Part shown: positions 30,080-57,893 of the stretch, one piece after another
Layout of the letters: each line of letters opens with the position of its first letter
Numbering within the stretch: the first letter of the stretch is position 1
Assembly: GCA_903903635.1 (NCBI GenBank)
Contig: CAIUZK010000201.1
Span: 1-58,075 of the forward strand
Reading direction: 5' to 3'
DNA from: an uncultured Bacteroidota bacterium
GTDB lineage: Bacteria > Bacteroidota > Bacteroidia > Chitinophagales > Chitinophagaceae
DNA: 58,075 nucleotides
Made by a program: the position numbers and the translations under genes
The notes under the pieces: model-generated
Seen by the model: the letters and a program-made list of their open reading frames with translations, nothing else
The model's database searches: none
What the model was told of the DNA's origin: nothing

Positions 30080-30089
30080 GGTGCTACGG

Positions 30090-32042: not shown

Positions 32043-32310
32043 TACCGGGCTTTCTAAAGGTGTACTAAAAGTAATAAAAACTACTTGTAAAGTGGTCTTA
32101 AGCCACATAACATCTTCACAAAATCCGTCGGGCTAAAATTATAAGGTTCAGGTAGGATACTTAATCCACTTTTAAAGACACCAGATTCTAAAAAATGGTT
32201 GGTAATTGAATTGATTTTTTATAACGCCTATCAATCTGATAATTCCGTTTATCTCCTGAAAGATTGAGAATTGAAATTCCCGAAAAAATAAAACAAGCAT
32301 GATATGATTA

Positions 32311-37141: not shown

Positions 37142-40100
37142 CTATTGCTCAACAACCAAATGGAATACTTTGTTATCATTCAAAGTACGGACATTCAGGA
37201 TGTACATGCCATTGGCCACTGAACGACCCAACTGCACGTTTTCCTGTATTAAGCCATTGGAAGCTGTTATCTTATTTTTATAAACCACCTGTCCCAGAAT
37301 ATTTGTTATCTCCAATGTTGCTTCTTCGCCAGCAGTACCAATTCTGCCGCTGATGGTAAAGACGCCGTTGTTTGGATTAGGTAAAACCTTAACGTCATCC
37401 TGTGAAGACACCACTGGTTTAACACCAACATTGGATACATTTAAGATAACTGAATTTACACCCTTCAATCCGGCACAACCGCCACTGCTTGTTACACTAC
37501 AGCTAACCACATCACCATTATGGAATGTATTACCTGTGAAAGATGGCATTGTAGCTCCGGGAGCATCAACACCATTCACCGACCATTGGTAAGCTGGTGA
37601 TGGTCCGCCATTAGTAACTGTAGCTTCTAGTGTCAGTGACTCACCAGATGCAATATCCAAACCAGGATAAGCTACGATACCAACAACAGGAGCTGTTGCA
37701 ACATCCACTATCATATTTGATGGAGCGCTGGTTACATAGTTGGAAAGTCTGCAAGTATAATTACTATTCATCTTACAGGTAATTACATCTCCTGAAGAAG
37801 GAACATAAATATAGGTAGGGCCGCTGCCAACTACTAACCCACCCTTCATCCAGGAATACACAGGAGCAGTTCCTCCATAAGATGGAGTTGCACCAAAGGT
37901 TACAGATGTACCCTGGCAAACCTCTACCCCGGGATTAGCTGAAATAGTGACACCCGGATTTTGTTTTGCCCAAACAGTGATAGCAGCCGATGTATTTACC
38001 ATAGCAGGTGTTGCGCAGGTAGCATTGCTGGTAAGCACCAAACTAACTATATCGCCATTAGCTGGAATATAACTGTAGCTTAAAGAAGTACCTGTAGTCA
38101 CGCCGTTTACCGCCCATTGATAAGCAGGCGCTGAACCGCCATTCGAAACACTGGCAGTAAATGAAGTCAGGTTACCAGAGCAAACTGTATCACCTCCGGC
38201 AGTAGCAATATTAACTGTTGGCACTACTACAGGAACATTGATCACTGTAGCTGTACCCGACATTGTGCTGGTACAACCGGTTGCCGGATTGGTTGCTTTT
38301 ACAGTGTAGCTACCTGCCAAAGTCTGGTTTCCAAAATCAAGTATTGCACCTGTTCCGGCAAGAGTGCTGCCGGAAGTAGAACCATAATACAAGGTATAGT
38401 TGATGCCCGTACCGGATCCTGAAAGACCTACGTGTACCCCACCAGTACCATTACAATAGCTGCCTCCACCATTAACCGGGAAAACATCAGGCAATGAATT
38501 AATAGAAACTGCTGCGCTACCAGACATATTGCTGGTACAACTTGAAGTTGCATCAGTAGCAATTACTGTATAAGATCCTGCGGCAGTCTGGTAACCAAAG
38601 TCAATTGCCAGGCCTGTACCTGCAATATGACCACCAACTGGTGTTGATCCTCTATATAGCTGATAATTCACACCTGTTCCAGAGCCAGTTAAACCAATAT
38701 GAACACCGGCATCACCGGCACAATAACTTCCGCCACCAGATACAGACTGAACAACCGGTAATGGTATTGCCGTTACGTTTACACCACCAGTCATAATACC
38801 TGTGCAACCTGTAGCATTGTTTGAAGCAACAACAGTATAGAGCCCTGTAACAGTCTGCACACCGAAATCAATTGAATATCCGGTACCGGCCAAAGGAGAA
38901 CCGACAAGATATGCTCCTCTGTATAATTGATAGCTGAATCCGGTTACAGAACCATTCAGACCAACGTGTGCGCCTGCTGATCCTGCACAGAAACTACCTC
39001 CGCCGGTCACAGTGAAAGCAGTTGGAGCAGGATAGTTATATATTGTCGCGCTGCCGGTCATATTATTTGTACAGCCTGTACTGCTGTTCATGGCTATTAC
39101 TGTATAATTTCCGGTCAGGGATTGTGCTCCAAGATCAAGTGCATATCCGGTACCACTTACTGTGCTGCCTATTGCAATACCACTATGGTATACCTGGTAG
39201 GTGACACCTGTAGCCGAACCACTGAGACCCAGATGCGCACTACCGCCAACACAGATTCCGCCACCACCGGTAACATTATAAGCTGTTGGCTTTGGATTAA
39301 TCGTTACAGATACACTTCCTGCCATATTATTGGTACATCCGGTACTTGTATTAGTTGCCGCTACTGTATAAACGCCAACCAGTGTCTGAATACCGAAAGT
39401 TAGTGCACCACTGATTCCTGAAACAGGAGCGCCAACGGCAGTTGTGCCACGGTACAACTGATAATTTACCCCTGCATCCGAATTACTCAGATAAAGAGCA
39501 ACACCAGTACCGCCACTGCAATAACCAGTTGAGCTGCTGCCAGTAACAGTGTAAGCAACAGGAACCAGGCCGGTAACTATTGGCGCTGTTCCGGTCATAT
39601 CAATACTACATCCTGTTGTGTTATCAGTTGCTTTCACAGTATAAGTTCCTGCTATTGTCTGAAGACCAAAATCTATCGCTGAACCTGTTCCCGCAAAAGC
39701 TGAACCTGAAAGAATACCTGAATTGTATAACTGATAATTTACACCCGATGAAGAGCCATTCAGATACACATGAGCGCCTGAACCAACAGCACAAATCGCG
39801 CCACCACCTGTAACATTAAACACCGATGGCAATGGCAATGTACTTACAGTTGGGCTGCCGGTCATTGTTTTAGAACATGAAGTAACAATATCGGTACCAA
39901 TAACTGTATAATTACCGGTAGCTGTTTGCAAGCCAAAGTCTAAAGCAAGACCTGTTCCATACATCGGAACGCTTGCTATCGCTCCGTTTCTATATAACTG
40001 GTAAGAAACACCAGATGTAGAACCGTTCAAAATAACATGTACTCCTGTGCCGGATGTGCAATAACTACCGCCACCGGTTACAGTAAATGGCACTACAGCC

Positions 40101-43100: not shown

Positions 43101-46100
43101 ACAGTATATGTACCGGGAGTGGTTATTGAACCGAAATCAAGTACACCACTTGTACCGCTTACAGCCGCGCCAACAGGAGTTACACCAGACATAAGCTGAT
43201 AAGAAATTCCTGTGTTGGATGCATTAAGATAAGCATGAACACCTGCTCCACCAGCACAGAAGCCACCGCCGCCTGTAACCGTATAAACAGTAGGTAATGG
43301 ATTAATTGTAATAGTTACACCCATATTCATAGTAACCGCACATGGAGTACCATAATTGGCCACAACAGTATAAATACCTGCTAAGGTCTGTGGACCGAGG
43401 TCAAATGGCGCGGCGCCTGTACCCACAACAGGTGAACCAATAGGAGTACCATTCCTCAAAATCTGATAACCCACACTAACACCTGAACCATTCAGGTATA
43501 TGTGGGCGTTGCCACCTGAACATATATAACCGCCACCTGAAACAGTATAGGTTACCGGTGTATTAGTAACACCTAATACAGCAGTGGCAATACAGCCATT
43601 GGGGAATAAATAGGTCATTGTTGAGAAGCCGCCGGAATAGGTATTCACTATACCGGTAACCGGATCAATAGTGGCTACTGCAGTATTACTGCTGCTCCAT
43701 GTTCCACCAGGAGTAGCGTTATACAAAGTCGTGCCATATCCGGAACAAACACCTATGGTTCCTGTTATTGGCGTAATTGCATTTACAGTTAATGGCTTTA
43801 CAGCAGTACAACCACTTGGTAGCGTATAAGTAATAGTTGGATTACCACCGGTTACACCGGTAACAATACCACTTGACACACCAACAGTAGCCAGTGAAGT
43901 ATTACTACTGGACCATGTACCGCCACCTGCATCAGAAAGTGATATAGTAAATGCAGGACAAACAGATGAAGGACCTGAAATCGCACCAGGTTGAGCGAGA
44001 ACAGTAATCGGAGTACTTATATAACAACCGGTGGAGAGTGTATAAGTAATATTTGCGCTACCCGGCGTTCCACCTGTAACAATTCCGCTTGATGCCCCGA
44101 TGGTGGCTACAGTAGTATTATCACTGGTCCATGTACCACCTGTAGGGGTTGAAGCCAGTGCAGAAGTGGTAGTACTGCAAACTGCCAGATTACCTGTAAT
44201 GGCTGTTGGTGTCGGATTATAACTAATTGGCTGGCTGGGAAGCGATGTTGCACTAAGTCCGCTGTTGGCACAAGTAGCAACCTGCCGGCAATATAATGTT
44301 ACGGGAGAAGAAAGCGTAGGCGAATAAACCGAATTTGTTGCACCGCTAATTGGAGTAAATCCACCAAAAGGACTTGTAGATGATTGCCATTGGTAACTCA
44401 TTCCAGCTGTTGCTGACTCCCCAACGTTTATTAAATTTGTAGTAAATGAAGAACAACTGGCTGTTGTTCCTGCTACACTGATAATACCTGGATTAGGTGT
44501 ACCAGCACATGCAGTTGTTCCCACGATCGCGGTATAATCCCTTGTATCGAAATAATACTGATAAGGAGTAACTGCTGATGGGCAAGGATTCATGGAAGGA
44601 AATGATGGATAATATGTGCTATAACCAGCAGCATAATATACAGTATAACCATTTTCTACCCTCATTCTATGAGCGCCTGCAGTAGCATTAGCCGGGATAG
44701 TGATAACAGGATGGTATCTTGGTTGAGTTACACTGGTAGGATTTTGATAGCCACCCACAGTCTCACTCGACTCAAATATGCCATTATCATTAAAGTCTAT
44801 CCATATCTGACCTGACATATAATAATAGGCGCTTCCGATTGTTGTAGTATAAGAACCTCCTTGATTTAAGTTTACACTCATTGATGTATTGTTGTAGTAA
44901 TAGGGAGATCCTCCTGTACCGGAACCGCAAGGGCTGGCATCACTTATTACTGTGCCACCCGCACCATTTATTATTACCGGGTTGCCAGTTGTACCCACAT
45001 AATAAGTACACGGACTATAATAAGATGAAGGAGTGCAGGAAGAAGCCGCAACTCCTCCTGTATAGGTAACCATTACACTGGTAGAAATTGCCGAAGATCC
45101 TGCTACACAATTCAAAATACACCTATAATAGGTATTGGCTAATAATCCAGAAAAAGTATAAGTTGAGTATATTCCATCCTGAATGTTAGACCAAGTTGTT
45201 CCATCCGGCGATGATTGCCATTGGTATAAGATACCGCCTGAAGTAGAGGCACCTGTAAGGCTAAGTGAGAAAACTACACCACCGTTACCAGATGTCGGAG
45301 TAACAGAAGTTGTACCTGCAACAGGGGTACCGCTGCAATTGGCTATCCCCGTGCCACTAACTGCCACATTCACAGCCGAAGGGAGTGAAGCGCCTGAAAT
45401 AACAATATTGCCACTATAAGTAGTTGCTGCACTTGGGTTAAAATTGACATATACATTAGTAGCCGATAAAGAACCAACGGGGAATCCCGGAGTAAAAGGC
45501 ACACTCATAGCGCCTGTATACCAGGTTACCCCATCAAGTGATACCGAAAAATTGGCTGGTGGAGTTACTGTAATTGGCGTACCTGCAAGGTTTGAACCTG
45601 TAATAGTAAAAAATCTTGGAGGTATTGAACTGACACCTGTTGTAACATTACCAAATGCAATGGAAGATTGAGTAGAAATTAACGATGCCGGAGCTAAATT
45701 GACAACAGCAGTATAATCTCGTGTATCTGCATAATAAACATATGGCACTACAGATGAAGGGCATGGATTCATTTTTGGATATGCCGGATAGGTAGTACTG
45801 TAACCTGCAGCGTAATATGAACTATACCCATTTATCACTCTCATTCTGTGAATACCTGGCTGAGCATTCGCAGGTATTACTATTGTTGGATGATATCTGG
45901 CTATTGTAGTACTCGTTGGATTCTGATATCCGCCAACTGTTTCGCTTTGTTCAAAAACCCCATTGTCATTAAAGTCAATCCAGATCTGGCCGGAAACATA
46001 ATAATAAGATGGGCCCATTGTGGTAGCATAAGATCCACTCTGAACAAAGGTCACGCTCATCCCAACATTATTATAATAATAAGCCGATCCGCCCGTTCCT

Positions 46101-48235
46101 GACCCGCAGGTACTGGCGTCACTGATTCCGCCTGCCACACCACTAATGATTACAGGATTACCAGCGGTACCTGCATAATAAGTACATGGTGAAGAATAGG
46201 ATGATGGTATACAGGATGAAGCAGCAACCCCTGTTAATGTTAATAACTGTGAGGAAGAACTGGCTGAAGAGGCCCCGCAACTTACTACACAACGAAAATA
46301 GGTACTCGATGCAAGCCCCATAAAAATGTAAGTACTGTTTGTTGCTCCAAAAACATTAGTCCATGTGCTGTTATCAGGACTGGATTGCCACTGATAAGTA
46401 AGACCGGCAACAGCACTAACACCTGTTAAACTAAGGTTGAAAGAAGTACCACCTGTACCCGAAGTTGGAAAGGATGTAGCGCTACCCGCCGTTGGTGTAC
46501 CCGAACAGCCAGGTAAGGCATTGCCATTAACTGCGATGTTATATGTAGCAGCAATTCCACCTCCGGTCACGGCAACCACATCTGAATAAGTTGTAGCGGC
46601 AGTAGGATTAAACTGGATATAAAATGGTGTTGGACTTAATGAAGGAGGTGTATAGGATAATGTAATGGATGAAGTCCATGGTCCTCCTGCGCTTGTAGAA
46701 ACCTGGAAATAAGCAGGAGCTGTAATGGTAATAGGCCCCGCTGTAAGGTTGCCTCCGGCTAAGATTGATGATGAAACAGTACTGGATCCGATGGCCTGAA
46801 GTCCAAAGCTAACTGTTGTAGGTACAGCATATACATAAGGCACAACAGCGCCAAAGATATAATCACCGGCAAGCGAATTGAGCAATGTGGCTGAAGTTGG
46901 CGTAGAAGTATAAGGAGAACTGGTATTAATATTGTTGGTAGGCGAAGACAACCACGAACCACCTGCAAATTGTTGTGTCTTGAATTGTGTATTGGATCCT
47001 CCAAGAATATCACCCGCATTATAAGTAACTGCTGGTGTTACGCTGGTTGGCCCTGCTGCGGCCTGATTACTAATTGTCCAGTAATGATTGACCATAGCAG
47101 AAAGACCAAAACCAGAGGTTGTTGCAGATGGATGCAGGCCGGCACTGCACAGAACGCCTAATGAACCTGCTGTTCCTGCCGCACTGAAATTGAGCAGCAT
47201 GGGTGCATAGGTTGCATCACCCACTTCATAGTTTACGCTGGTAAAACCGGTAATGGTTTTGATAAGATTTCCGATAACATAATTTCCTGCCCCTGCCCCT
47301 GCAACCGCTGTTGAATTACCAGGTATAGTAAGGGCGTAGCCTCCGGTACTTAAAGTACCTGATATAAAATTGATTGCATTGGTGGTACTTGTATTTGATG
47401 TATTTTGAGAAAGCGTAACCCCGGCACTATTATTAATGATTAACTGAGCGGGTGATGTTAATGAAGAAGGTAAGAGCGCCCCGGTCACCTGTGCCGAAGT
47501 ACCGTCAAATCCGTAATTTGCTGCGACATTCAAAGTTTTAGCGCCTGAAGCTAATAATGTACCGTTAATTCCTGTTGGAACCCCTGTATACATGGTTGCT
47601 CCGCTGTTTAGTGTAAATGGCAAGGTACCACTTTGAGTATATGGTCCGAAATCAATGGTACCTGTTACAGCCATGGCATAAGAGTTTGTCCAGAGCATAT
47701 TTGATGTAAGCGCAACAGTAACTCCTGCATCAACATAGGAATAAGTGTAAGTACTGCTACCTGTGCTATTTATATTTAAATGCTGTGGGCTTGCCAGTGT
47801 AGAAGCCGTATTGGTAAAATGCACATAATTATAAGAAGGTGGATTGGTCATAATAGCACTTCCTGTTATCGTTAAATCTCCTGAAATATAAAAATAATTT
47901 CCAGTTGTTCCAACAATTCCGCCTGTGCCCAATACCTGTAGATTACCAACATAGATATTGGCGCATCCATTCGTAAATGTTACGCCATTAACCTGCAATG
48001 TAGTATTGGGTCCTAAGGTCCATGTAGAACTGGTAACACCGGTCATAGGAACCTGCATAATAAACACATCCCCGGCAGTAGTAAAGTTGGCTGGGTTTGA
48101 CCCTCCACCACCACTAATACTATTCCAGTTAGTCAATACTGTTGGGTCTCCCCCCGATGTTACAGAATACCATGTTGCTGCAAAAACAGCAGTATTAATC
48201 AAACAAAACAGTGCCAGAATAAATAATTTCCTCAT
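37142..48235 (-). CDS. Giant T9SS-secreted repeat protein A (20 Ig-like modules, two GEVED domains)
   Basis: A 3697-residue surface protein. The signal peptide is about 1-19. Residues 20-465 are a glycine/threonine-rich beta-structured head. A block of choice-of-anchor-like domain, Ig-like domain and GEVED domain (about 467-840, WIDFNDNGVF near 747) is repeated in tandem at about 845-1235 (WIDFNDNGIF near 1141). Ig/BIG2-like domains with TWSSSNTAVATI-type strands follow (to about 1558). Residues 1560-3338 are 20 modules of about 89 residues. Each module reads roughly YTVTGGGxYCxGGxGVHVGL, YQLYxxGxxVG, GTGxxxDFGxQT, YTVxATN and GCxxxMxGSATV, with two conserved Cys. Three Ig/PKD-like domains (3339-3616) and a type-A T9SS sorting domain (3617-3697, PNPNNG ... 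GMYILNVRTL) finish it. The likely role is a long adhesin or surface filament; the module is not a family I can name. ATG start at 48235, own promoter and terminator. Confidence 0.9.
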   Translation of the reverse strand: MRKLFILALFCLINTAVFAATWYSVTSGGDPTVLTNWNSISGGGGSNPANFTTAGDVFIMQVPMTGVTSSTWTLGPNTTLQVNGVTFTNGCANIYVGNLQVLGTGGIVGTTGNYFYISGDLTITGSAIMTNPPSYNYVHFTNTASTLASPQHLNINSTGSSTYTYSYVDAGVTVALTSNMLWTNSYAMAVTGTIDFGPYTQSGTLPFTLNSGATMYTGVPTGINGTLLASGAKTLNVAANYGFDGTSAQVTGALLPSSLTSPAQLIINNSAGVTLSQNTSNTSTTNAINFISGTLSTGGYALTIPGNSTAVAGAGAGNYVIGNLIKTITGFTSVNYEVGDATYAPMLLNFSAAGTAGSLGVLCSAGLHPSATTSGFGLSAMVNHYWTISNQAAAGPTSVTPAVTYNAGDILGGSNTQFKTQQFAGGSWLSSPTNNINTSSPYTSTPTSATLLNSLAGDYIFGAVVPYVYAVPTTVSFGLQAIGSSTVSSSILAGGNLTAGPITITAPAYFQVSTSAGGPWTSSITLSYTPPSLSPTPFYIQFNPTAATTYSDVVAVTGGGIAATYNIAVNGNALPGCSGTPTAGSATSFPTSGTGGTSFNLSLTGVSAVAGLTYQWQSSPDNSTWTNVFGATNSTYIFMGLASSTYFRCVVSCGASSASSSSQLLTLTGVAASSCIPSSYSSPCTYYAGTAGNPVIISGVAGGISDASTCGSGTGGSAYYYNNVGMSVTFVQSGSYATTMGPSYYYVSGQIWIDFNDNGVFEQSETVGGYQNPTSTTIARYHPTIVIPANAQPGIHRMRVINGYSSYYAAGYSTTYPAYPKMNPCPSSVVPYVYYADTRDYTAVVNLAPASLISTQSSIAFGNVTTGVSSIPPRFFTITGSNLAGTPITVTPPANFSVSLDGVTWYTGAMSVPFTPGFPVGSLSATNVYVNFNPSAATTYSGNIVISGASLPSAVNVAVSGTGIANCSGTPVAGTTSVTPTSGNGGVVFSLSLTGASTSGGILYQWQSSPDGTTWSNIQDGIYSTYTFSGLLANTYYRCILNCVAGSSAISTSVMVTYTGGVAASSCTPSSYYSPCTYYVGTTGNPVIINGAGGTVISDASPCGSGTGGSPYYYNNTSMSVNLNQGGSYTTTIGSAYYYMSGQIWIDFNDNGIFESSETVGGYQNPTSVTQPRYHPVITIPANATAGAHRMRVENGYTVYYAAGYSTYYPSFPSMNPCPSAVTPYQYYFDTRDYTAIVGTTACAGTPNPGIISVAGTTASCSSFTTNLINVGESATAGMSYQWQSSTSPFGGFTPISGATNSVYSPTLSSPVTLYCRQVATCANSGLSATSLPSQPISYNPTPTAITGNLAVCSTTTSALASTPTGGTWTSDNTTVATIGASSGIVTGGTPGSANITYTLSTGCYISTPITVLAQPGAISGPSSVCPAFTISLSDAGGGTWSSSNTSLATVGVSSGIVTGVTGGNPTITYTLPSGCTAVKPLTVNAITPITGTIGVCSGYGTTLYNATPGGTWSSSNTAVATIDPVTGIVNTYSGGFSTMTYLFPNGCIATAVLGVTNTPVTYTVSGGGYICSGGNAHIYLNGSGVSVGYQILRNGTPIGSPVVGTGAAPFDLGPQTLAGIYTVVANYGTPCAVTMNMGVTITINPLPTVYTVTGGGGFCAGGAGVHAYLNASNTGISYQLMSGVTPVGAAVSGTSGVLDFGSITTPGTYTVVATNTFTGCINNMSGSAVVTINPFPAAYTVTGGGSYCAAGVGVPVGLSNSVSGISYQLYIGITPVGAAVAGNGSPISFGNQLLAGTYTVVATNTTTGCVNNMSGSAVVNIIALPSLYTVMGGGAFCTGGTGVHITLSGSGVGVNYQLYKGVATVGTALAGTGSSLDFGSITVAGIYTVIASVPASACSLTMPGSATVIINPGPSTFNVTGGGSYCSGSGGLHVGLSGSNTGTNYYLFNGTSLIGGASGTGVLIDFGLKVAPGTYTVSASISGTGCAGTMAGSAVITINPLPNAYAVSGGGSYCTGAAAPHVLLSTSDLGINYQLYYNGTPVGSAIVGGAAIDFGAQTAPGIYTVLAIDPIYGCKNFMTGSAIVSINPLPSGYSVSGGGNYCTGGSGVHVSLSNSDAGVSYQLQLSSVNVGSPVSGTGSLLDFGLKTATGVYTVVATNATTTCTSNMPGSATVGLLSLPNDYSLTGGGGLCPGGAGNHIGLIGSDAGITYQLYNGTVAVGPSISGSGSAIDFGLITAPGTYTAKATNISTGCVATMSGTGLISIYALPVANTVTGGGNYCVGGTGVHIGLNGSVTGVNYQIYNGGSPIGGVVPGTGSPIDFGLFTTTGSYNIVATDITTTCTRNMTGSATVGINPLPVTHNVTGGGSYYCAGGTGVPVGLDGSNAGTNYQLYRGGVISGAALPGTGLALDFGLQTVAGSYTVIATTPATGCTNNMLSGASVIVTGLPAMHTVTGGGNYCPGTGGVVVGLNGSNAGDNYQLYLNGTATGSPLSGSGFALTFGLQTGVGNYTVVASDPITGCSTAMTGSTSVAVSSLPLVYNITGGGSYCIGGAGSHIYLSGSTSGVSYALYQGGVLTSTVIAGTGSPLDFGLQPAGTYIIKGTSTSTGCVNTMTGSVAITTNSLPVQYTVGGGGNYCVGGAGADVTLGGSESGVYYQVSLSGSVLGAPVYGTGSPINLGLQTTPGFYSVIATNSTTGCTNTMTGTSTVGNYPAVVPFTVTGGGSYCTSGTGVHVILNGSTSGVSYQLYRNGAIASVPMYGTGLALDFGLQTATGNYTVIGTDIVTSCSKTMTGSPTVSTLPLPSVFNVTGGGAICAVGSGAHVYLNGSSSGVNYQLYNSGILSGSAFAGTGSAIDFGLQTIAGTYTVKATDNTTGCSIDMTGTAPIVTGLVPVAYTVTGSSSTGYCSGGTGVALYLSNSDAGVNYQLYRGTTAVGAPVSGISGALTFGIQTLVGVYTVAATNTSTGCTNNMAGSVSVTINPKPTAYNVTGGGGICVGGSAHLGLSGSATGVTYQVYHSGIAIGSTVSGTGYALDLGAQSLTGNYTVIAMNSSTGCTNNMTGSATIYNYPAPTAFTVTGGGSFCAGSAGAHVGLNGSVTGFSYQLYRGAYLVGSPLAGTGYSIDFGVQTVTGLYTVVASNNATGCTGIMTGGVNVTAIPLPVVQSVSGGGSYCAGDAGVHIGLTGSGTGVNYQLYRGSTPVGGHIAGTGLAIDFGYQTAAGSYTVIATDATSSCTSNMSGSAAVSINSLPDVFPVNGGGSYCNGTGGVHVGLSGSGTGINYTLYYGSTSGSTLAGTGAILDFGNQTLAGSYTVKATNPATGCTSTMSGTATVINVPVVVPTVNIATAGGDTVCSGNLTSFTASVSNGGSAPAYQWAVNGVTTGTSLSYSYIPANGDIVSLVLTSNATCATPAMVNTSAAITVWAKQNPGVTISANPGVEVCQGTSVTFGATPSYGGTAPVYSWMKGGLVVGSGPTYIYVPSSGDVITCKMNSNYTCRLSNYVTSAPSNMIVDVATAPVVGIVAYPGLDIASGESLTLEATVTNGGPSPAYQWSVNGVDAPGATMPSFTGNTFHNGDVVSCSVTSSGGCAGLKGVNSVILNVSNVGVKPVVSSQDDVKVLPNPNNGVFTISGRIGTAGEEATLEITNILGQVVYKNKITASNGLIQENVQLGRSVANGMYILNVRTLNDNKVFHLVVEQ
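38222..43558 (-). repeat. Array of 20 coding repeats (about 267 bp each) in giant gene A
   Basis: 5337 bp encode 1779 residues, an average of 88.95 residues per module. DNA identity between neighbours is modest, so this is an old array, not a recent minisatellite. Every module keeps the Cys after GGGxY and the Cys of the GCxxxM element. Odd modules can be recognised: the 10th has an extra residue before its first Cys, the 12th lacks one in LQPAGTY, and the 16th begins TGSSSTGYCSGG. Confidence 0.92.
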
Positions 48236-48301
48236 ACTTTATATTTTAATTATTATATATATTAGTGTACTAATTATGTATGTACATACACCAAATAACG
48301 C

Positions 48302-48331
48302 CAAATTTATGTTATAAAAACAAAGTGGCAA
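48302..48331 (-). promoter_or_regulatory. Promoter of giant gene A (TTG-N19-TAAATTTG)
   Basis: On the minus strand, TTG (48331-48329), a 19-base spacer and TAAATTTG (48309-48302). Both boxes match the Bacteroidota consensus exactly. The box ends 66 bp before the ATG at 48235. The rest of the 361-bp space 48236-48596 holds only the terminator of gene B. Confidence 0.75.
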
Positions 48332-48540
48332 AATTTAGTTAACAACATAAATGCAATCATTGCGTATTGTAGTTATTCTATAATTATTTACGCATTTGTC
48401 CATTTACATATTAATTTGGGATTGTGGTGTTTGATACAAATTTTACATGTTTTTTCATATCGCATCAGTTGCATTTGAGATAAATAAACCTAAATATCTT
48501 AAATGCGATACAAAGATAATTTGATCTGACCGCTCTAAAA

Positions 48541-48578
48541 TCAAATGGGGTCTCCCTTTTCTGGAAAACCCCATTTGA
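48541..48578 (-). terminator. Hairpin terminator of giant gene B
   Basis: TCAAATGGGGT (48541-48551) pairs perfectly with ACCCCATTTGA (48568-48578), loop 16 bases. It lies 19 bp after the stop of gene B on the minus strand and shares the stem core with the terminator of gene A. A short T-run (TTTT) follows. Confidence 0.75.
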
Positions 48579-48596
48579 GTATGAATTTGAAAACAA

Positions 48597-51500
48597 TTAT
48601 CGCTCAACAACCAGATGGAAGACTTTGTTCTCGTTAAGTGTCTGAACATTCAGAATATACATACCATTGGCAATAGAACCACCCAACTGTACACTTTCCT
48701 GAATCAGCCCGTTGTCGGCTGTTACCTTATTGCGGTAGACCACCTGGCCCAGCATATTGGTTACCTCAAGCAAAGCTTCCTCTTTGGAATTACCAATTCT
48801 GCCGCTGATGGTAAAGGTTCCGTTATTGGGGTTTGGCAATATCTTAATACCATCCTGAATAGAAACTACAGGCTTAACACCTACATTGGCCACATGAACA
48901 ACAACAGAATTTGAACCCTTCAATCCGGCACATCCTCCGCTGCTTGTTACATTACAGCTTACCACATCACCATCATTATAGGTACTTCCCGTAAATGCAG
49001 GAAGCGTAGCGCCTGTAGCATTTGTACCATTTACAGCCCATTGATAAGTTGGCGCCGGTCCGCCATTGGTAACTGTTGCTTCAAGCGTAAGTGGCTGTCC
49101 TTCAGCAATGTTCAATCCGGGATAAGCCGAGATACTGACAACCGGCACTGTTGCTATATCTACTACCATGTTTGCCGGTGCGCTTGTTACAGTGTTCAAA
49201 AGCCTGCAGGTATAATTACTGTTCAATTTACAGCTTATAACATCACCCGGCGCCGGAGTATAAGTATAAGTGGACCCGCTGCCAACCGGTATGCCACCCT
49301 TCAACCATGAGTAAGAAGGTGAAGCTCCTCCGTAAACAGATGTTGCACTAAAAGTAACCGGAGTACCCTGACATACCTCAATGCCAGGATTAGCTGAAAT
49401 AGAAATACCCGGAGTTTGCTTTGCCCAAACTGTGATAGCTGCTGAAGTATTAACCGATACTGGTGTAGCACAGGTGGCGTTGCTGGTAAGAATTAATCCT
49501 ACCACATCGCCATTTACAGGAATATAGCTGTAGCTGATTGATGAACCGGTATTCACTCCGTTAACCGACCATTGGAATGAAGGTGCAGAGCCGCCATTTG
49601 ATAAACTGGCCGTAAATGTAGTCAGATTGCCGGAGCAGACGGTATCGCCTCCCGTTGTAGAGATGCTCACAGTTGGCACTACAACAGAATTACTGGTAAC
49701 TGTAGCCGAACCCGCCATAGCGCTGGTACAACCGGTTGCCGGATTGGTAGCTTTTACTGTATAGCTTCCTGCCAGAGTCTGGTTTCCAAAATCAAGTATT
49801 GTTCCGGTTCCGGCCACAGTGCTGCCGGACGATACACCATGATATAAGGTATAATTCATACCAATTGCTGACCCTGAAAGACCAACGTGCACACCACCAG
49901 TACCATCACAATAACTGCCACCTCCGTTTACCGGATAAACATCTGGCAATGCATTAATAGCTACTATTGCGCTTCCTGACATGTTGTTTACGCAACCCAA
50001 AGATGCTTCAGTAGCAACTACAGTATAGGATCCTGCCGCAGTCTGATAACCAAAATCAATTGCAAGTCCTGATCCAGGTATAGGACTACCCATAAGCGTT
50101 GACCCCTTATATAAACGATAATTAACACCAGTAGCCGAACCACTTAATCCTATATGTACACCAGCATCTCCGGCACAATAGCTTCCGCCGCCAGATACCG
50201 GGTGAACAACAGGTAGCGGAACCGCAGTTACATTAGCCCCGCCGGTCATAATAGCAGTACATCCTGTAGCATTATTTGTAGCCAAAGTTGTATAAAGCCC
50301 TGAGACTGTCTGAATACCAAAATCAAGTGAAGCACCTGTTCCGGGCAAAGCTGACCCTACAAGATCAATTCCTTTGTATAACTGGTAACTGAAACCGCTT
50401 GCTGAACTATTAAGACCAACATGCACACCGGTAGAACCTGAACAGAAATTACCACCGCCTGTCATGCTGTATGCGGTTGGCGCAGGATTGGTATAAATAG
50501 TCGCAGTACCTGTCATTGTATTGATACAACCCGTACTGGTATTCATCGCAATAACCGAATAACTTCCTGTCAGGGTTTGTGCTCCAAGATCAAGGGCAAA
50601 GCCTGTGCCGCTAACAACACTGCCAATGGCAACACCGCTATGGTATACCTGATAATTGATACCAGTTGCCGAACCACTGAGACCAAGAGATCTGCTGCCA
50701 CCGCTGCAAATGCCTCCGCCTCCTGTCACATTAAAGGAAGTTGGTTTTGGATTGATGGTAACAGAAACGCTGCCGGCCATATTATTAGTACAGCCCGCGC
50801 TAATATTAACAGCCGAAACAGTATAGTTACCCACAATAGTCTGACTACCGAATGACATCGAGCCACTGATGCCTGCCACCGGTGCGCCTACTGCGGTTGT
50901 ACCACGATATAACTGGTAATTTACTCCGGCTTCCGAATTGCTTAAATAGATCGCAACACCTGATCCGCCACTGCAATAACCGGTTGAACTGCTGCCTGTA
51001 ACTGTATAGGCCACCGGAACACTTCCAGTATTAATAGTTGCAGTTCCTGTCATATTGATATTGCAGCCTGTAACATTATCCGTTGCTTTAACGGTATAAG
51101 CGCCTGCGGTAGTCAGCAATCCGAAATCTATTGCAGAACCTGTTCCCGGCCAGCTTGAACCGGAGAGTATACCGGAGTTATACAACTGATAACTAACGCC
51201 TGATGATGAGCCACTCAGATAGATATGTGCGCCTGAACCAACTGCACAAATTGCACCGCCACCTGTGACATTATAGGTGGCTGGCAATGGGTAGGTACCT
51301 ACTGTTGCACTGCCTGTCATGGTTTTAGCGCATAGACTTACTATATCTGTACCAATAACTGTATAGTTGCCTGTAACTGTTTGCGAACCAAAGTCAAGCG
51401 GTAAACCGGTACCAAATAATGGGACACCTGTTGCCGTGCTACCAACATATAACTGGTAAGTAACCCCGGTGGTAGATCCGTTAAGCAGGATATGCACACC

Positions 51501-54500
51501 TGTTCCGGAAGCGCAATAGTTTCCGCCACCAGTTACTGTATAAGGTACAATTGCCGGATAATTGCCTACTGTACTTGTACCGGTCATCGTATTGGTACAA
51601 CCCGTTGAACTGTTGGTAGCGATCACTGAATACATACCGGTAGCCGTTTGCAAGCCCATATCAATAGAAGTACCTGTGCCATATACCGGAACTCCTACTG
51701 TCGATCCTGATAAACTTAACTGATAATATACCCCGCTTTCAGATCCGCCCAAAGTAATATCAGATCCTGCACCACCTGCACAATACAAGCCGCCACCGGC
51801 TACAGCATATTGTACCGGCAATGGATTGGCGGTTACTGATGCCGACCCGGTCATTGTGTTAATACACCCTGTAGAAGTACTTGTTCCTTTTATTGTATAG
51901 GTTCCTGCAGGTTGTAATCCAAAATCAAGCGGCGAACCGGTACCTGCAACAACTGTTGTTGTCAGCACACCGGCATTATATAATGCATAGCTCACACCCG
52001 AAGTCGAGCCATTGAGATAAATGTGAGATCCTGTACTACCAATACAATAACTACCGCCCCCCGTAATATTATAAACCAAAGGCAGTGCCGACATAGCCAC
52101 GGTAGTTACCCCTGCCATTCCCGCGCTGCATCCGGTAATGGGGTCGGCTGCAACTACGCTATAGTTACCTGGAGTAGTCTGCAACCCGAAACTCAAAGCT
52201 GAAGTGGTTCCGGCAATAGGACTGCCAGAAGCTAATCCATTGATGTATAATTGATAAATCACTCCGGTATTCGATCCGTTCAATCCAACGGTTACTCCAC
52301 CCGAACCCGGACAATAGTTTCCGCCACCTGTAACTGTATGCGATGCAGGAGATCCGATTACAGTTATTGATACACCGCTGAGCATGCTGGCGCTACAGCC
52401 TGTTGATACAGTTGTTGCAACCACTGAGTAACTGCCCCCAACTGTCTGCAACCCATAATCCAAAGCCAGTCCTGTACCCGGAACGGGTGTACCTACAAGA
52501 ACGCCGCTTCTATATAACTGGTAGTTGGTTCCTGTATTTGAGCCATCCAGACTAACCGGCAATCCAATACCTCCGGCACAAGTAAAACTTCCGCCACCGG
52601 TTACAGAATGCATTACGGGCAATGGATTGGCACCTACAGTTGCACTACCAGTCATTGTATTCAAACAGGTGGTAACCGCATTGGTGCCTACTACAGTATA
52701 AGTACCAGAACTTGTAAATAACCCAAAGTCTATTGGAGATCCTGTTCCGGGAATTAACCCGCCAACCGGAGATCCTCCATTAAATATCTGGTAATTAACA
52801 CCGGAAACCGAACCATTTAATCCAATATGCACACCTGTACCTCCTGTACAATAATTACCGCCGCCGGTAACCGTATTGGCTGCCGGAAGTGGGTTTACAC
52901 TTATTATCACGCTACCCGACATATTATTAATACAACCTGTTATAAGGTTGGTTGCTTTTACCGTATAAGTTCCTGCAACAGTCTGCAATCCAAAATCAAG
53001 TGCACTACCAGATCCTGCTATAGCTGCACCAACAGCAACAGTTCCGTTATACAACTGATAAGAAACCCCTGCATCTGAATTAGATAAACCAATACTTCTG
53101 CCTGAACCACCGGTACAATAACTTCCGCCGCCGGTTACATTGTATACGGTTGGCAAGAGCAAAATACCAACTGTGGCGCTGCCTGGCATAGTTGATGAAC
53201 ACCCGGTTACAGCATTAGTTGCAATAACCGTATAGGTACCCGCGGTTGTAACCAATCCGAAATCAAGTGCTGAACCAGTTCCAGCCACCGGAGTTCCTGC
53301 TGAAACTATTCCTAACTTCAATTGGTAATTCACACCAGCATCTGAGTTGTTTATATTCACATGTACACCTGTACCACCAGTACAATAATACCCGCCACCG
53401 GATACGGTATATCCTGATGGCAGCGGATTGGCAACAACAGTAACACTTCCGTTCATGGTATTCATACAACCTGTTGCAGTAATAGTAGCAATAACTGTAT
53501 AAGTACCCGCTGCAGGCTGAACTCCGAAATCCAATGAACTGCCTGTTCCTGCCATGGCAGTACCAACAGGTGTAGTTCCGTTCATCAGTTGATACGAAAC
53601 CCCGCTTGTTGAAGAGCTGAGCAGCACATGCGGCGCTGCAGCTCCTGAACAATAACTGCCACCACCTGTAACATTAAATGCCGTTGGCAATGCATTAATA
53701 GATATAGTAACACTTCCTGTCATATTCCCACCACAACCTGTACCAGTTACAGTAGCAGTAACTGTATAAATACCTGCTGCTATTTCCAATCCGAAATCAA
53801 GTGGCGCACCTGTACCTGATGCTCCTCCTACAATAGTAGCGCCGTTATACAGGTAGTAATTGGTTCCTATTACAGATCCGTTAAGTCCTACATGTAATCC
53901 ACCTGTTCCTAAGCAATAATTGCCACCACCGGTAACAGTAAAACTAACAGGTGGCGGATTGATGGATACAATTACACTGCCTATCATTGAATTAGTACAA
54001 GTTGAGGCCGGAATTGAGGCAACAACAGTGTAGGTACCAACAGCGGTAAAAATGCCGAAATCGATGGCGCTACCTGTACCTGCAACTAAACCGCCTACTG
54101 TGCCCGGCCCGTTATATAACTGATAGTTGGTACCTACTGATGAACCACTCAGGCCAATATGTACACCCGTGCTTCCTGAACAATAAGAACCACCACCTGT
54201 AACTGAATAAAACAACGGCAACGATATAATACTTACAGTCGCACTGCCAGTCATATTGCTGACACAAGCTGTAGTTGCATTGGTTGCAATAACAGTATAA
54301 GTACCTGCAAGAGTCTGGTTTCCAAAAGATATTGATGCGCTGGTTCCCGCAACAGGCGAGCCAATGGCAACCCCACCCTGGTACAATTGATAATTCACAC
54401 CAATAACCGATCCGCTTAATGAAACCGGCATACCGGAACCACCCACGCAATAGCTGCCACCACCCGAAACTGTAAATACAGCAGGTAATGGATTGATACT

Positions 54501-57500
54501 GATAATTACACTTCCCGTCATATTGTTCACACAGCTCGTTACAGAATTCGTTGCAACGGCAGTATAAGTACCTGCAGAAGTAAATACACCGAAATCTATA
54601 ATACCACTTGTTCCTGCAACCGGAGAACCTGTTGATAATCCCGAATTATATAGTTGATATGAAATTCCCGTATTGGACCCGCTCAGGTAAACATGTACCC
54701 CACCCGATCCGGCGCAATAGCTTCCTCCACCTGTAACACTGTAAGCGGTTGGTACCGGTAAAATACTGATTGCCACACTGCCTGTCATTGTTGCAGCACA
54801 TGATGTACCCGGATTGGCCGTAACTGTATACAAACCGGCTGTAACCTGAGGCCCGAAATCAATAGCGCCGCCTGTTCCGGAAATAATACTACCTGTAGGA
54901 ACTCCTGAAATACTCAACTGGTAGCCAACCCCTATTGTTGAGCTGTTTAAACCAACATGTAGAGCTGTTGCGCCAATACAATAATTGCCCCCTCCCGTTA
55001 CGGTAAAGAGCGAAGGAGAGGATGTAATATTTACCAATTGAGTAGCAGAACATCCTGTAGATGGTAACGTATAAGATATAGTACATGACCCAAGTGTAAT
55101 ACCCGTTACAATTCCTGTGCCTGCACCAACTGTTGCAACAGAAATGTTGTTACTGCTCCATGAACCGCCGCCGGTTATATCACTTAATGTTGTGGTATTG
55201 CCAACACATGTGCCGGCTACACCTGTTATTGCTGGTGTCTGGTTTACGGTAATCGGTGTTGTAATAGAGCATGCTGTGGGTAGTGTATAGGTAATAGTGG
55301 TAGTTCCACCAGATACACCGGTGACAATACCTGTACCCGATACTACTGTCGCTATAGCAGTATTATTACTGGCCCATGTACCGCCCCCTGCATCCGACAA
55401 AGTTGTTGTCAGACCTGCACAAACTACCGGAGTACCTGATATCGCCGAAGGCAAAGGATTAACATTGAATACAAATGTATTGCCTGATGAAAGGTTGCTG
55501 ACACAACCGGTAGCGCTGCTGGTAATCGAATTTATCGTAATTGTCGTTGAACCGGAATTACCCAATGAGACCGTACTGAAAGTACCAGTACTGCCACTCA
55601 TAGTAATGGTAGCTGTATTGCCCAAAGAGGTATTTGCGCCGGTAATATTATAGTTGACTGTATAGACGCCTGCCGTTAGACTTGCAGATGTAATTGTAAC
55701 TGTTGCCGGATTTCCAATACAACCATTTGCCACAGAGGTACTGAATGCACTGACATTAGGCTGCGCGGTAACTACTGCTGTTGTAGTATAATTTAACGAA
55801 CAACCTGAACCTGTGCCATTATTTACTGTAACAGTATAGATACCGCTTGCCGTTGCAGGCGCTGCGTTTACACTTGCAGTTGCACTGGTTGCACTGGTAA
55901 TAGTGCCGGGCCCCGTCCATGAATAGCCGGTAACATTTGTTGCGCCATTTGCTGTTAGGCTCAAATTATTGCCTGCACATATCGGCCCGCTGTTTGTTGC
56001 ACTGGTAAGCGCAGGTTGAGGATTTACAGTAACGCTTGCAGATCCGGATGAAGTACATGCATTGGAGCCATCTACTGTTGTGTATAAATTATAAGTGCCA
56101 CTTGCACTGGTACTGGTTACTATATAATTCTGCGTTGTACTTGTGGTAGTAGCATAATAACTAAGCGGACCGGTCCATGTATAAATGGTTGAACCAGCCA
56201 CTGTTGGTGATGTTAATGTAAGTACACCGTTCACACACACAGGGCTGTTGCTGGTAGGTGCAGGTGTAGGCGGCAATATCTCCACCATATAATCATTCGC
56301 CTGCCCGAAATAGTTAAGCGCTCCGGTTGGGGTAATTGATCCTGTTGTATAACCCAAAGTTGAATTGGCAGTACGCACTCTCATGCGGTGTATACCGAAA
56401 TTATTTGCCGGGATGGTCAGCGTAAAGGTGGTTGCTGTTCCTGCTACGCCAGTTACACTACCTACATACTCATTTGCATCTGTAAAAACACCATTATCAT
56501 TAAAATCGATCCATACGCCTACTACCGCAGCATACGAGCCTCCGTAATTGTTATAAGTAGCTGTAAAGCCGGATGAAGAAGTTGGGCTTCCCTGAAGCTG
56601 AATATGGGTTGCCCGGTTGGTGTAATCTACATAGGTATATGATGTGCCGCAACAGGTTTGGTAGCCTGTATAATTATAATTGCTTACACTGTTATTCAGA
56701 TCATTAAGCGCACTACCGCAAGCTCCACCAGCAATCTGGAACTGTCCAATATTTTCATTCGGATACCCGCTGGCAGAGAAATACGCATAAGAAGGAAGCC
56801 CGGGATAAGAAGACTCATAGCCAACAGCAATTGCTGAGGAGGCCACCTGCGTGCCGCCGCCACATGCTACCAGGCAAATATAATATGCTGCCGCAGTAGG
56901 TGTAAGCGTACAGGTTGCATTGGTAGCCCCTGATATATTTGCCCATGAATTTGCAAGGCCGGTTGGCGAACTTTGCCACTGGTAAGTTAAACCTGTTGCA
57001 AGGGGTAAACCTGATAGGCTGAGAGTAATAGGGCCTGTAGCAATACCGGATGTGGAGAGTGTAGCAGCTGCAGATGGCGTGCCACTGCATGCCACAGGCA
57101 TCTGCCCTGCCGATGGCGTAAAATCATACGTTGTACCTGCAGGTATACTTACTGCAGTAGTAAATGGAATATTAGTTGCAGTGGTTGAAGTATTGTTGGT
57201 AACTGATGTCCAACTGGAGCCACCTACAAGATTAAAATCAGCTGTTGAAGCACCACTTAGGCCTACCACCGCATTATAGGCTGGCGAATATGCTGTTGTT
57301 GAACTGCCATATACCAGTTCTGCAACATTGCTGGTTTCTTTCAACCTGATCTGAAAGGTTAAAGCATCGCTTGGGCCACCATATCCCCAATAGGTTACCG
57401 ACCGTGTACAACTTGTCCACTGCACTACAAATATCCTGTTGGGCGCAGTTCCTATTGTGCCATAATAAATAGGGTTTGCATTGGTATTATCCAGCAGCCC

Positions 57501-57893
57501 TCCAAGAAGTACGCCACCTGCGCCACCTGAATATTGATAGGTTACTGCACAGCCATACCCCATAATAGCTCCTGCCTGGCCATTATTTACCGTATGCGGC
57601 CTGGGATTGGTGGGTAATGTAGGGGCAGCGAAGCTTAAATGGCCGTTGCTGTTTACAAATACGCTCGAATATCCTGCTCCTTTAAAATAATAAACAAAGG
57701 GCAAAGGGACATTATATACTTGTTCAAACCATCCATTCCCTGATAATCCCGAGTTGGGTGGTACAACGGCTGTGCCTCCTGATAGTGGTGTATAGGTCCC
57801 ACTTGAGTAACTGAATGTATATGAGCTAACCTGCGCACTTAAGTTCAACCCAATACATAACAACAATAATAATAGTAAGGCGTTCTTTTTCAT
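48597..57893 (-). CDS. Giant T9SS-secreted repeat protein B (20 Ig-like modules, one GEVED domain)
   Basis: A 3098-residue paralogue of protein A. The signal peptide is about 1-20 (LLLLLLLCIGLNLSAQ). Residues 21-265 form a head unrelated to that of A (NGHLSFAAPTLPTNPRPHTV, APNRIFVVQWTSC), resembling a Bacteroidota extracellular N-terminal domain. An Ig-like domain follows (to about 355), then one GEVED domain (about 361-541, GVWIDFNDNGVFTDANEYVG) and several Ig/BIG2-like domains (to 959). Residues 960-2739 are 20 modules of the same kind and order as in A. Three Ig/PKD-like domains and a type-A T9SS sorting domain (3018-3098) complete it. It would be exported by T9SS and cleaved or anchored at the surface. 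ATG start at 57893, own promoter and terminator; gene A follows 361 bp downstream. Confidence 0.9.
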   Translation of the reverse strand: MKKNALLLLLLLCIGLNLSAQVSSYTFSYSSGTYTPLSGGTAVVPPNSGLSGNGWFEQVYNVPLPFVYYFKGAGYSSVFVNSNGHLSFAAPTLPTNPRPHTVNNGQAGAIMGYGCAVTYQYSGGAGGVLLGGLLDNTNANPIYYGTIGTAPNRIFVVQWTSCTRSVTYWGYGGPSDALTFQIRLKETSNVAELVYGSSTTAYSPAYNAVVGLSGASTADFNLVGGSSWTSVTNNTSTTATNIPFTTAVSIPAGTTYDFTPSAGQMPVACSGTPSAAATLSTSGIATGPITLSLSGLPLATGLTYQWQSSPTGLANSWANISGATNATCTLTPTAAAYYICLVACGGGTQVASSAIAVGYESSYPGLPSYAYFSASGYPNENIGQFQIAGGACGSALNDLNNSVSNYNYTGYQTCCGTSYTYVDYTNRATHIQLQGSPTSSSGFTATYNNYGGSYAAVVGVWIDFNDNGVFTDANEYVGSVTGVAGTATTFTLTIPANNFGIHRMRVRTANSTLGYTTGSITPTGALNYFGQANDYMVEILPPTPAPTSNSPVCVNGVLTLTSPTVAGSTIYTWTGPLSYYATTTSTTQNYIVTSTSASGTYNLYTTVDGSNACTSSGSASVTVNPQPALTSATNSGPICAGNNLSLTANGATNVTGYSWTGPGTITSATSATASVNAAPATASGIYTVTVNNGTGSGCSLNYTTTAVVTAQPNVSAFSTSVANGCIGNPATVTITSASLTAGVYTVNYNITGANTSLGNTATITMSGSTGTFSTVSLGNSGSTTITINSITSSATGCVSNLSSGNTFVFNVNPLPSAISGTPVVCAGLTTTLSDAGGGTWASNNTAIATVVSGTGIVTGVSGGTTTITYTLPTACSITTPITVNQTPAITGVAGTCVGNTTTLSDITGGGSWSSNNISVATVGAGTGIVTGITLGSCTISYTLPSTGCSATQLVNITSSPSLFTVTGGGNYCIGATALHVGLNSSTIGVGYQLSISGVPTGSIISGTGGAIDFGPQVTAGLYTVTANPGTSCAATMTGSVAISILPVPTAYSVTGGGSYCAGSGGVHVYLSGSNTGISYQLYNSGLSTGSPVAGTSGIIDFGVFTSAGTYTAVATNSVTSCVNNMTGSVIISINPLPAVFTVSGGGSYCVGGSGMPVSLSGSVIGVNYQLYQGGVAIGSPVAGTSASISFGNQTLAGTYTVIATNATTACVSNMTGSATVSIISLPLFYSVTGGGSYCSGSTGVHIGLSGSSVGTNYQLYNGPGTVGGLVAGTGSAIDFGIFTAVGTYTVVASIPASTCTNSMIGSVIVSINPPPVSFTVTGGGNYCLGTGGLHVGLNGSVIGTNYYLYNGATIVGGASGTGAPLDFGLEIAAGIYTVTATVTGTGCGGNMTGSVTISINALPTAFNVTGGGSYCSGAAAPHVLLSSSTSGVSYQLMNGTTPVGTAMAGTGSSLDFGVQPAAGTYTVIATITATGCMNTMNGSVTVVANPLPSGYTVSGGGYYCTGGTGVHVNINNSDAGVNYQLKLGIVSAGTPVAGTGSALDFGLVTTAGTYTVIATNAVTGCSSTMPGSATVGILLLPTVYNVTGGGSYCTGGSGRSIGLSNSDAGVSYQLYNGTVAVGAAIAGSGSALDFGLQTVAGTYTVKATNLITGCINNMSGSVIISVNPLPAANTVTGGGNYCTGGTGVHIGLNGSVSGVNYQIFNGGSPVGGLIPGTGSPIDFGLFTSSGTYTVVGTNAVTTCLNTMTGSATVGANPLPVMHSVTGGGSFTCAGGIGLPVSLDGSNTGTNYQLYRSGVLVGTPVPGTGLALDYGLQTVGGSYSVVATTVSTGCSASMLSGVSITVIGSPASHTVTGGGNYCPGSGGVTVGLNGSNTGVIYQLYINGLASGSPIAGTTSALSFGLQTTPGNYSVVAADPITGCSAGMAGVTTVAMSALPLVYNITGGGSYCIGSTGSHIYLNGSTSGVSYALYNAGVLTTTVVAGTGSPLDFGLQPAGTYTIKGTSTSTGCINTMTGSASVTANPLPVQYAVAGGGLYCAGGAGSDITLGGSESGVYYQLSLSGSTVGVPVYGTGTSIDMGLQTATGMYSVIATNSSTGCTNTMTGTSTVGNYPAIVPYTVTGGGNYCASGTGVHILLNGSTTGVTYQLYVGSTATGVPLFGTGLPLDFGSQTVTGNYTVIGTDIVSLCAKTMTGSATVGTYPLPATYNVTGGGAICAVGSGAHIYLSGSSSGVSYQLYNSGILSGSSWPGTGSAIDFGLLTTAGAYTVKATDNVTGCNINMTGTATINTGSVPVAYTVTGSSSTGYCSGGSGVAIYLSNSEAGVNYQLYRGTTAVGAPVAGISGSMSFGSQTIVGNYTVSAVNISAGCTNNMAGSVSVTINPKPTSFNVTGGGGICSGGSRSLGLSGSATGINYQVYHSGVAIGSVVSGTGFALDLGAQTLTGSYSVIAMNTSTGCINTMTGTATIYTNPAPTAYSMTGGGNFCSGSTGVHVGLNSSASGFSYQLYKGIDLVGSALPGTGASLDFGIQTVSGLYTTLATNNATGCTAIMTGGANVTAVPLPVVHPVSGGGSYCAGDAGVHIGLSGSATGVNYRLYKGSTLMGSPIPGSGLAIDFGYQTAAGSYTVVATEASLGCVNNMSGSAIVAINALPDVYPVNGGGSYCDGTGGVHVGLSGSAIGMNYTLYHGVSSGSTVAGTGTILDFGNQTLAGSYTVKATNPATGCTSAMAGSATVTSNSVVVPTVSISTTGGDTVCSGNLTTFTASLSNGGSAPSFQWSVNGVNTGSSISYSYIPVNGDVVGLILTSNATCATPVSVNTSAAITVWAKQTPGISISANPGIEVCQGTPVTFSATSVYGGASPSYSWLKGGIPVGSGSTYTYTPAPGDVISCKLNSNYTCRLLNTVTSAPANMVVDIATVPVVSISAYPGLNIAEGQPLTLEATVTNGGPAPTYQWAVNGTNATGATLPAFTGSTYNDGDVVSCNVTSSGGCAGLKGSNSVVVHVANVGVKPVVSIQDGIKILPNPNNGTFTISGRIGNSKEEALLEVTNMLGQVVYRNKVTADNGLIQESVQLGGSIANGMYILNVQTLNENKVFHLVVER
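49677..55016 (-). repeat. Array of 20 coding repeats (about 267 bp each) in giant gene B
   Basis: 5340 bp encode 1780 residues, 89.0 per module, only one residue longer in total than the array of gene A. Modules correspond one to one in order with those of A, including the odd ones: the 10th (GGGSFTCAGG, extra residue), the 12th (LQPAGTY) and the 16th (TGSSSTGYCSGG). Confidence 0.92.

Follow-up and report, generated by a model that had tools for sequence, protein, structure and literature searches.

Why two neighbouring giant proteins should carry the same number of repeated modules in the same order is the question raised by the last two genes of the analyzed stretch of DNA (58,075 nucleotides, contig CAIUZK010000201.1 of assembly GCA_903903635.1; hereafter the window), which comes from an uncultured bacterium of the family Chitinophagaceae. 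Each of the two proteins, A and B, contains a stalk of 20 immunoglobulin-like (Ig-like) modules, and module n of A pairs with module n of B. Relatives in the genus combine nearly the same stalk length with different heads. The best explanation, to which we assign a probability of about 0.65, is an inherited Ig stalk of near-fixed length with exchangeable heads, which would be exported by the type IX secretion system (T9SS) and serve as a spacer between the heads and the outer membrane. Both reading frames are intact and lie on the minus strand, B before A, with a gap of 361 bp between them; a hydrophobic N-terminal start is visible in both translations. The heads comprise 1562 amino acids (aa) in A and 962 aa in B. 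A hairpin after the B stop codon suggests that A is probably transcribed separately from B. The features are as follows:

37142..48235, minus strand: protein A, 3697 aa, with a hydrophobic start, a head, a 20-module stalk, and a tail with a T9SS sorting domain
43550..48175, minus strand: head of A, aa 21-1562, with GEVED in two stretches (the best at aa 750-842) and Big_2-like domains before the stalk
38219..43549, minus strand: stalk of A, modules A1-A20, 1777 aa
37145..38218, minus strand: tail of A, 358 aa, with Ig-like domains and Por_Secre_tail at aa 3618-3692
48597..57893, minus strand: protein B, 3098 aa, with the same layout as A
55008..57893, minus strand: head of B, aa 1-962, with GEVED at aa 458-537
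55755..56282, minus strand: Ig-like stretch in the head of B, aa 538-713, with a sequence match to the GhpA repeats of Aureispira
49674..55007, minus strand: stalk of B, modules B1-B20, 1778 aa
48600..49673, minus strand: tail of B, 358 aa, with Por_Secre_tail at aa 3019-3094
48541..48578, minus strand: terminator-like hairpin directly 3' of the B stop (-26.9 kcal/mol, z -5.3)

The modules were cut at the recurrent YxVTGGG start, and module 20 was cut by the analyst at 88 residues. This gave 20 modules of 88-91 residues in each protein, with equal lengths at 19 of the 20 positions and a single mismatch in module 6 (88 residues in A and 89 in B). The initial annotation had counted 20 modules of about 89 residues in both proteins, and its array lengths, estimated by eye as 1779 and 1780 residues, were close to the 1777 and 1778 obtained here. 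The mean identity between A(n) and B(n) was 71% (range 54-84%), while all other module pairs, within or between the two proteins, averaged 49-50%, and the best of them reached 62%; neighbouring modules were thus less alike than positional partners, as had been noted by eye. In raw identity, the positional partner was the nearest neighbour of 36 of the 40 modules, with the exceptions of A02, B01, B02, and B06. When A was compared with B alone, the best match fell on the diagonal in 20/20 rows and 20/20 columns. The maximum-likelihood tree of the 40 modules joined each A(n) to its B(n) in all 20 cases and paired no modules otherwise (bootstrap 79-100, Shimodaira-Hasegawa-like approximate likelihood ratio test (SH-aLRT) 83-100), which confirmed the proposed one-to-one correspondence; clustering by protein, named beforehand as the outcome contradicting it, was absent from this tree. 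The special marks were likewise present in both proteins, namely the extra residue in module 10, the shortened module 12, and TGSSSTGYC in module 16, and module 20, for which about 70 of 88 identical positions had been estimated, measured 81% identity. A consensus with 10 invariant residues was common to all 40 modules. Towards the C-terminal end of the array A and B became more alike, with 54-65% identity in modules 1-6 and 70-84% in modules 9-20. Synonymous divergence between A(n) and B(n) exceeded 0.9 in 19 of the 20 pairs (range 0.6-3.6), which indicates an old separation of A and B.

A comparison with relative C (locus L095; 3098 aa, 20 modules) placed the origin of the array before this separation. 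C showed the same marks at positions 1, 5, 10, 12, and 16, in agreement with the earlier claim that the array was complete before A and B split. The heads of C and B were 79% identical over 960 aa, whereas the head of A matched C in parts alone. By raw identity to C, the own position was the best match for 12 of the 20 A modules and 12 of the 20 B modules. The trees of separate sections disagreed: modules 1-6 gave (A,(B,C)) with a support of 95, while modules 7-12, modules 13-20, and the tail each gave ((A,B),C) with a support of 99-100. In modules 1-6, B was 62-71% identical to C and 54-65% identical to A; in modules 7-20 these values were 49-66% and 64-84%, respectively. The topologies suggest that A and B exchanged sequence in register long ago. 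Since the B-C identity drops to the A-C level in modules 7-20, it is likeliest, judging from the sequences, that the modules of B from about the seventh on and its tail were overwritten by the copy of A; unequal rates of change are a weaker alternative. No A-like gene was found after C on its contig. The exchanged parts would be the following:

48600..53411, minus strand: B modules 7-20 and tail, putatively exchanged in register with A, with the break somewhere in modules 6-9
37145..41956, minus strand: A modules 7-20 and tail, the counterpart of the putatively exchanged part of B

The region of the A head from about aa 457 to 1560 is of a type common to other 20-module proteins (44-48% identity over about 1100 aa) and different from that of B. 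Its presence on other 20-module proteins implies that heads and stalks have been combined anew.

The constancy of the stalk was followed in 71 arrays of the 20/21-module class with tails less than 65% identical. Chaining required a distance of 73-105 residues from one module start to the next, and the final module was trimmed to 88 residues. Twenty modules were found in 61 of these arrays and 21 in the other 10; the last 20 modules spanned 1774-1803 aa (mean 1782, standard deviation 6), and the heads 142-3367 aa. The tails of this class were 354-365 aa long in the 96 arrays retained after a 340-375 aa filter. On a tree of 222 tails, the module count changed 31 times, and the 109 arrays with 19-21 modules showed 8 changes over 35 substitutions per site. 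The initial annotation had described the array as resistant to scrambling, which held for the count and order of the modules but not, according to the section trees, for gene conversion. An earlier tree of 174 tails gave 24 count changes against 85 in shuffles, a result that near-copies favour. These 174 tails remained after the removal of 184 frames without an array, 26 with an array no more than 100 aa from the frame start, 13 duplicate tails, and 35 tails of other length, some of which (P0046, P0063, P0097, and P0116) have 20, 21, or 23 modules and a tail of about 700 aa. Two of the sets of fetched stretches that supplied tails overlap, and 56 tails were the same in both.

The profile of the 40 modules found at least 150 matches in the window's own genome (G000), and its fetched stretches contained intact arrays of at least 10 modules as follows: seven of 20, two of 21, four of 12, and one of 10. 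The arrays of 20 were those of A and B, three on contig 26, and one each on contigs 223 and 195; on contigs 144 and 256, the arrays are truncated by the end of the contig. On contig 26, at about 52200-79300, three 20-module genes are consecutive, with frames of 3502, 2480, and 2744 aa. Fetched stretches of the sister genome G097, the second of the genus, yielded five arrays of 20 and one of 12. Among the best 120 of 852 protein hits, including A and B, 20 modules were counted in 65, 21 in 12, 25 in 13, 24 in 8, 33 in 8, and other counts of 18-35 in 14; ranking by total score favours long arrays here.

A census of the genus based on the tail of B was also made. The B-type tail was present in 35/35 genus genomes among the matches listed. 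Outside G000 and G097, 135 of the listed places were taken, of which the 120 with a frame of at least 700 aa were fetched and 15 with shorter frames were left out; 2 of the 120 had no module, 10 were cut at the stretch edge, and 108 were counted. The short arrays had 1 module in 41 cases, 2 in 3, 3 in 1, 4 in 1, 6 in 6, 7 in 2, 9 in 2, 11 in 6, and 12 in 5, and the long arrays had 19 modules in 2, 20 in 23, 21 in 9, 24 in 2, 25 in 3, 26 in 1, and 31 in 1. Twenty was thus the commonest count among arrays with more than one module (23/67), with further clusters at 6, 11/12, and 24/25, and none of the 108 arrays had 13-18, 22, or 23 modules. A 7-module array (L178) and the 26-module array (L173) start no more than 30 aa from the frame start and may be incomplete. 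Of the ten arrays cut at the stretch edge, five already showed 32 modules, and the others 14, 10, 6, 9, and 7. In another, partly overlapping set of stretches, two arrays with 14 (L137) and 16 (L142) modules in view run into a contig end. Genomes differed in this census: in several of them the arrays were all single modules or belonged to the 6- or 11-module class. The idea that arrays just under 20 never occur was dropped, as two 19-module arrays (L172 and L196) were found, with no further module seen ahead of either. The tail region of B alone was not used as a query for counts: of the 119 proteins that it found besides B, 116 had no stalk module and 3 had one, a result for which matches of the tail's Ig-like domains to long Ig repeats are probably responsible.

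The order of the modules was traced in 72 arrays of 20 by sliding them against each other. Zero shift was the best of 13 shifts in 83/83 close, 618/659 intermediate, and 624/1814 distant pairs, where 1 in 13 is expected. Module 5 had 88 residues in 37 of the 71 arrays, and no more than 13 arrays had this length at any other of positions 2-19; module 16 had at least 90 residues in 36 of 71, yet position 2 reaches 28, so that this is a weak mark. Section trees of 20 proteins (modules 1-6, 7-12, and 13-20) recovered several of the same clades. The module-triple alignment was built from non-overlapping triples, 54 of 78 being used. In the 72 arrays, modules two apart were more alike than those one or three apart (15.6 versus 3.0 and 2.7 centred units); this was seen in B but not in A, and hints at an old two-module unit or an alternating geometry. 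Four very long members from the own genome and G097 (L051, L053, L071, and L072) all have a two-module island starting 979-984 residues before the 20-module array.

The stalk module had been said to belong to no named family, which proved wrong. Protein B as a whole matched Ig_7 (PF19081) with 79.3 bits (cut-off 27.3) in 11 stretches, and 13 of the 40 single modules matched it at E ≤ 0.01, while the other 27 did not; the single stretches listed from the window scored 23.5-25.7 bits, below the cut-off, and the Pfam search of whole proteins listed no Ig_7 match for A. By sequence, the stalk module is accordingly placed near Pfam Ig_7, an Ig-like domain associated with CHU_C, and this match says nothing about array length. 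Two sorting domains exceeded their cut-offs in both proteins, PF18962 (35.5 bits in A and 32.1 in B, cut-off 27) and TIGR04183 (32.4 and 34.9 bits, cut-off 23). A search limited to SprA found this translocon component in the window's genome (SprA_N, 516.8 bits, cut-off 27). A and B are best read as putative type A cargo that would be exported by the T9SS. The type A sorting domain TIGR04183 is matched at no fewer than 150 places in the same genome. Elsewhere in the window, at 29045-32108, a PorP/SprF gene adjoins one for a protein of 672 aa whose type IX sorting domain is of the CHU_C kind. A PorP/SprF gene beside a protein with a sorting domain of the CHU_C type is a usual pairing for type B cargo (compare PMC9143113).

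The Pfam profile search found GEVED domains in the heads of both proteins, and in the distal heads GEVED and Ig-like domains alone were recognised. A model of three modules from B consisted of Ig-like sandwiches (predicted local distance difference test (pLDDT) 95.5, predicted template modeling score (pTM) 0.75), and the closest solved structure was GhpA, the grappling hook protein A of Aureispira sp. CCB-QB1. As modelled, this is a match of fold and chain arrangement, not of function. The stalk modules had no sequence match in PDB below E 0.2, and A as a whole had none at E ≤ 0.01; the head of B matched GhpA repeats by sequence, with a large composition bias.

According to the preferred explanation, A and B would have the layout of fibrillar adhesins, in which a variable head at the N terminus is followed by 20 Ig_7-type domains forming a rod and, at the C terminus, by a part that would be exported and tied to the surface. 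A large family of paralogs would have received the 20-module rod from its ancestor as a single block with the module order fixed, and different heads would have been joined to it. Paralogs may occasionally swap sequence in register, whereby the module number would stay at 20. The rod would act as a spacer: its length hardly varies, and heads of different kinds would all stand roughly equally far from the outer membrane. The sequences themselves show the number and order of the modules, the almost unvarying array length in the 20/21 class, the variety of heads on one rod type, the T9SS sorting domains, and the mosaic of A and B; the rod shape, surface anchoring, adhesion, and a benefit of fixed length are what we infer.

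Several observations weigh against this explanation. The count is not absolute, as the tail-based census of the genus also contained arrays of 19, 21, 24, 25, 26, and 31 modules, five further arrays that had already reached 32 at the stretch edge, classes of 6-12, and many single modules. The census is confined to the best matches of the search with the tail of B, ranked by tail likeness, and leans to the kin of B. The positional signal is weak in distant pairs, with zero shift not the best in 1190/1814. No head with a known ligand-binding function was identified, and the first domain of B (14 related stretches, 13 of them aligned and L162 left out) was modelled poorly (pLDDT 65.6), with no fold match at E ≤ 0.001.

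Selection on stalk length is possible. It would account for the gaps between the classes and would fit in-register exchange, although a stable count may also follow from the small amount of identical DNA common to the modules, at which recombination is not easy. This is the basis of the strongest rival explanation, in which the fixed count is passive: diverged modules offer too little identical DNA for unequal crossing-over, and length is unselected. It is compatible with the preferred explanation, and we give it somewhat less than an even chance. The longest exact DNA match between two modules was 17 bp in A and 18 bp in B, and a stretch of at least 25 bp was common to 5 of the 5320 module pairs from 28 arrays of 20, in which a few genes are represented twice; with almost no long identical DNA between modules, unequal crossing-over is unlikely. 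Among 66 arrays examined, an exact repeat of at least 119 bp between two modules was found solely in the 31-module array L099, where it probably reflects a recent expansion. According to a review, repeat-number variation accompanies DNA identity between repeats (PMC9704523), and a second paper reports that human protein repeats are mostly conserved in number and order (PMC3995336). Taken alone, however, passive constancy leaves the gaps between classes unexplained, since arrays taken as intact do not have 13-18 or 22-23 modules (the best-120 list has one 18, one 19, and two 23s, each of which is incomplete, begins close to the end of its protein, or carries a different tail). The count is also able to change, as 8 single-module changes on the tail tree show.

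A stronger form of the preferred explanation, which we hold only tentatively and regard as rather unlikely, is that one cell presents many heads on 20-Ig rods (plus classes of about 6, 12, and 25) at one height or in a common filament, with the number kept by length selection while the sequence drifts, and with the heads shuffled by in-register recombination. A further rival, that the rods assemble as multimers into a filament resembling the Aureispira grappling hook and that this assembly sets their length, is improbable. GhpA resembles A and B as a giant protein with strings of Ig-like domains, and grappling hooks of this kind are described as T9SS-secreted. The stalk modules, however, do not match GhpA by sequence, nor does A, and a hook, a heptamer, or a role in predation would be hypothetical for A and B.

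The initial annotation had also proposed that each module has its own role. Read as a separate binding role for every one of the 20 modules, which would preserve their number and order, this is quite unlikely. The marks at modules 1, 5, 10, 12, and 16 common to A, B, and C, and the frequent 88-residue module 5, would fit such roles. However, one consensus with its invariant residues runs through all 40 modules, the family tolerates 21 modules, and the idea was weakened by the distant relatives, in which a module resembles its positional counterpart hardly more than it resembles the other modules. When A or B was compared with other 20-arrays, the positional identity was within about five points of background; against single distant 20-arrays there was often no positional signal, and the signal per module was small. 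That the equal counts are an artefact of assembly or annotation is hardly credible: the genomes are draft assemblies in many contigs, but neighbouring A modules are 51-61% identical in DNA, at which assembly collapse is not expected, and the same count recurred in many separately assembled genomes (two partly overlapping samples).

The spacer explanation can be set beside known systems. Fibrillar adhesins share with A and B the long protein, repetitive stalk domains, an anchor, and a distal variable region (PMC9210967). A and B differ in that any adhesive domain in their heads would be putative, and in their T9SS sorting domain, of which the portions considered of that paper make no mention. 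Periscope proteins are likewise surface stalks of tandem Ig-like or similar domains, but their repeats are near-identical and vary in number (PMC9704523), whereas the modules here are about 50% identical and 61 of 71 arrays have 20. Conserved tandem repeats of eukaryotes have also long kept their number and order (PMC3995336); those are orthologs between species, while here the number is common to paralogs in one bacterial genome with different heads. In titles and abstracts of the literature, covered in part, we found no account of T9SS Ig stalks in which the number of modules is conserved. Changing length is the best-known trait of bacterial surface stalks, and this family, with many paralogs, different heads, and nearly one stalk length, offers a natural test of selection on stalk length. 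The structural likeness also connects the stalks of this genus with the Ig-string filaments of a bacterial predator.

Apart from these genes, the window at 14616-16601 encodes a single 661-aa protein in which an NAD-dependent epimerase domain is fused with a family 2 glycosyltransferase. Beside it, the two halves of a transketolase are encoded by two separate genes.
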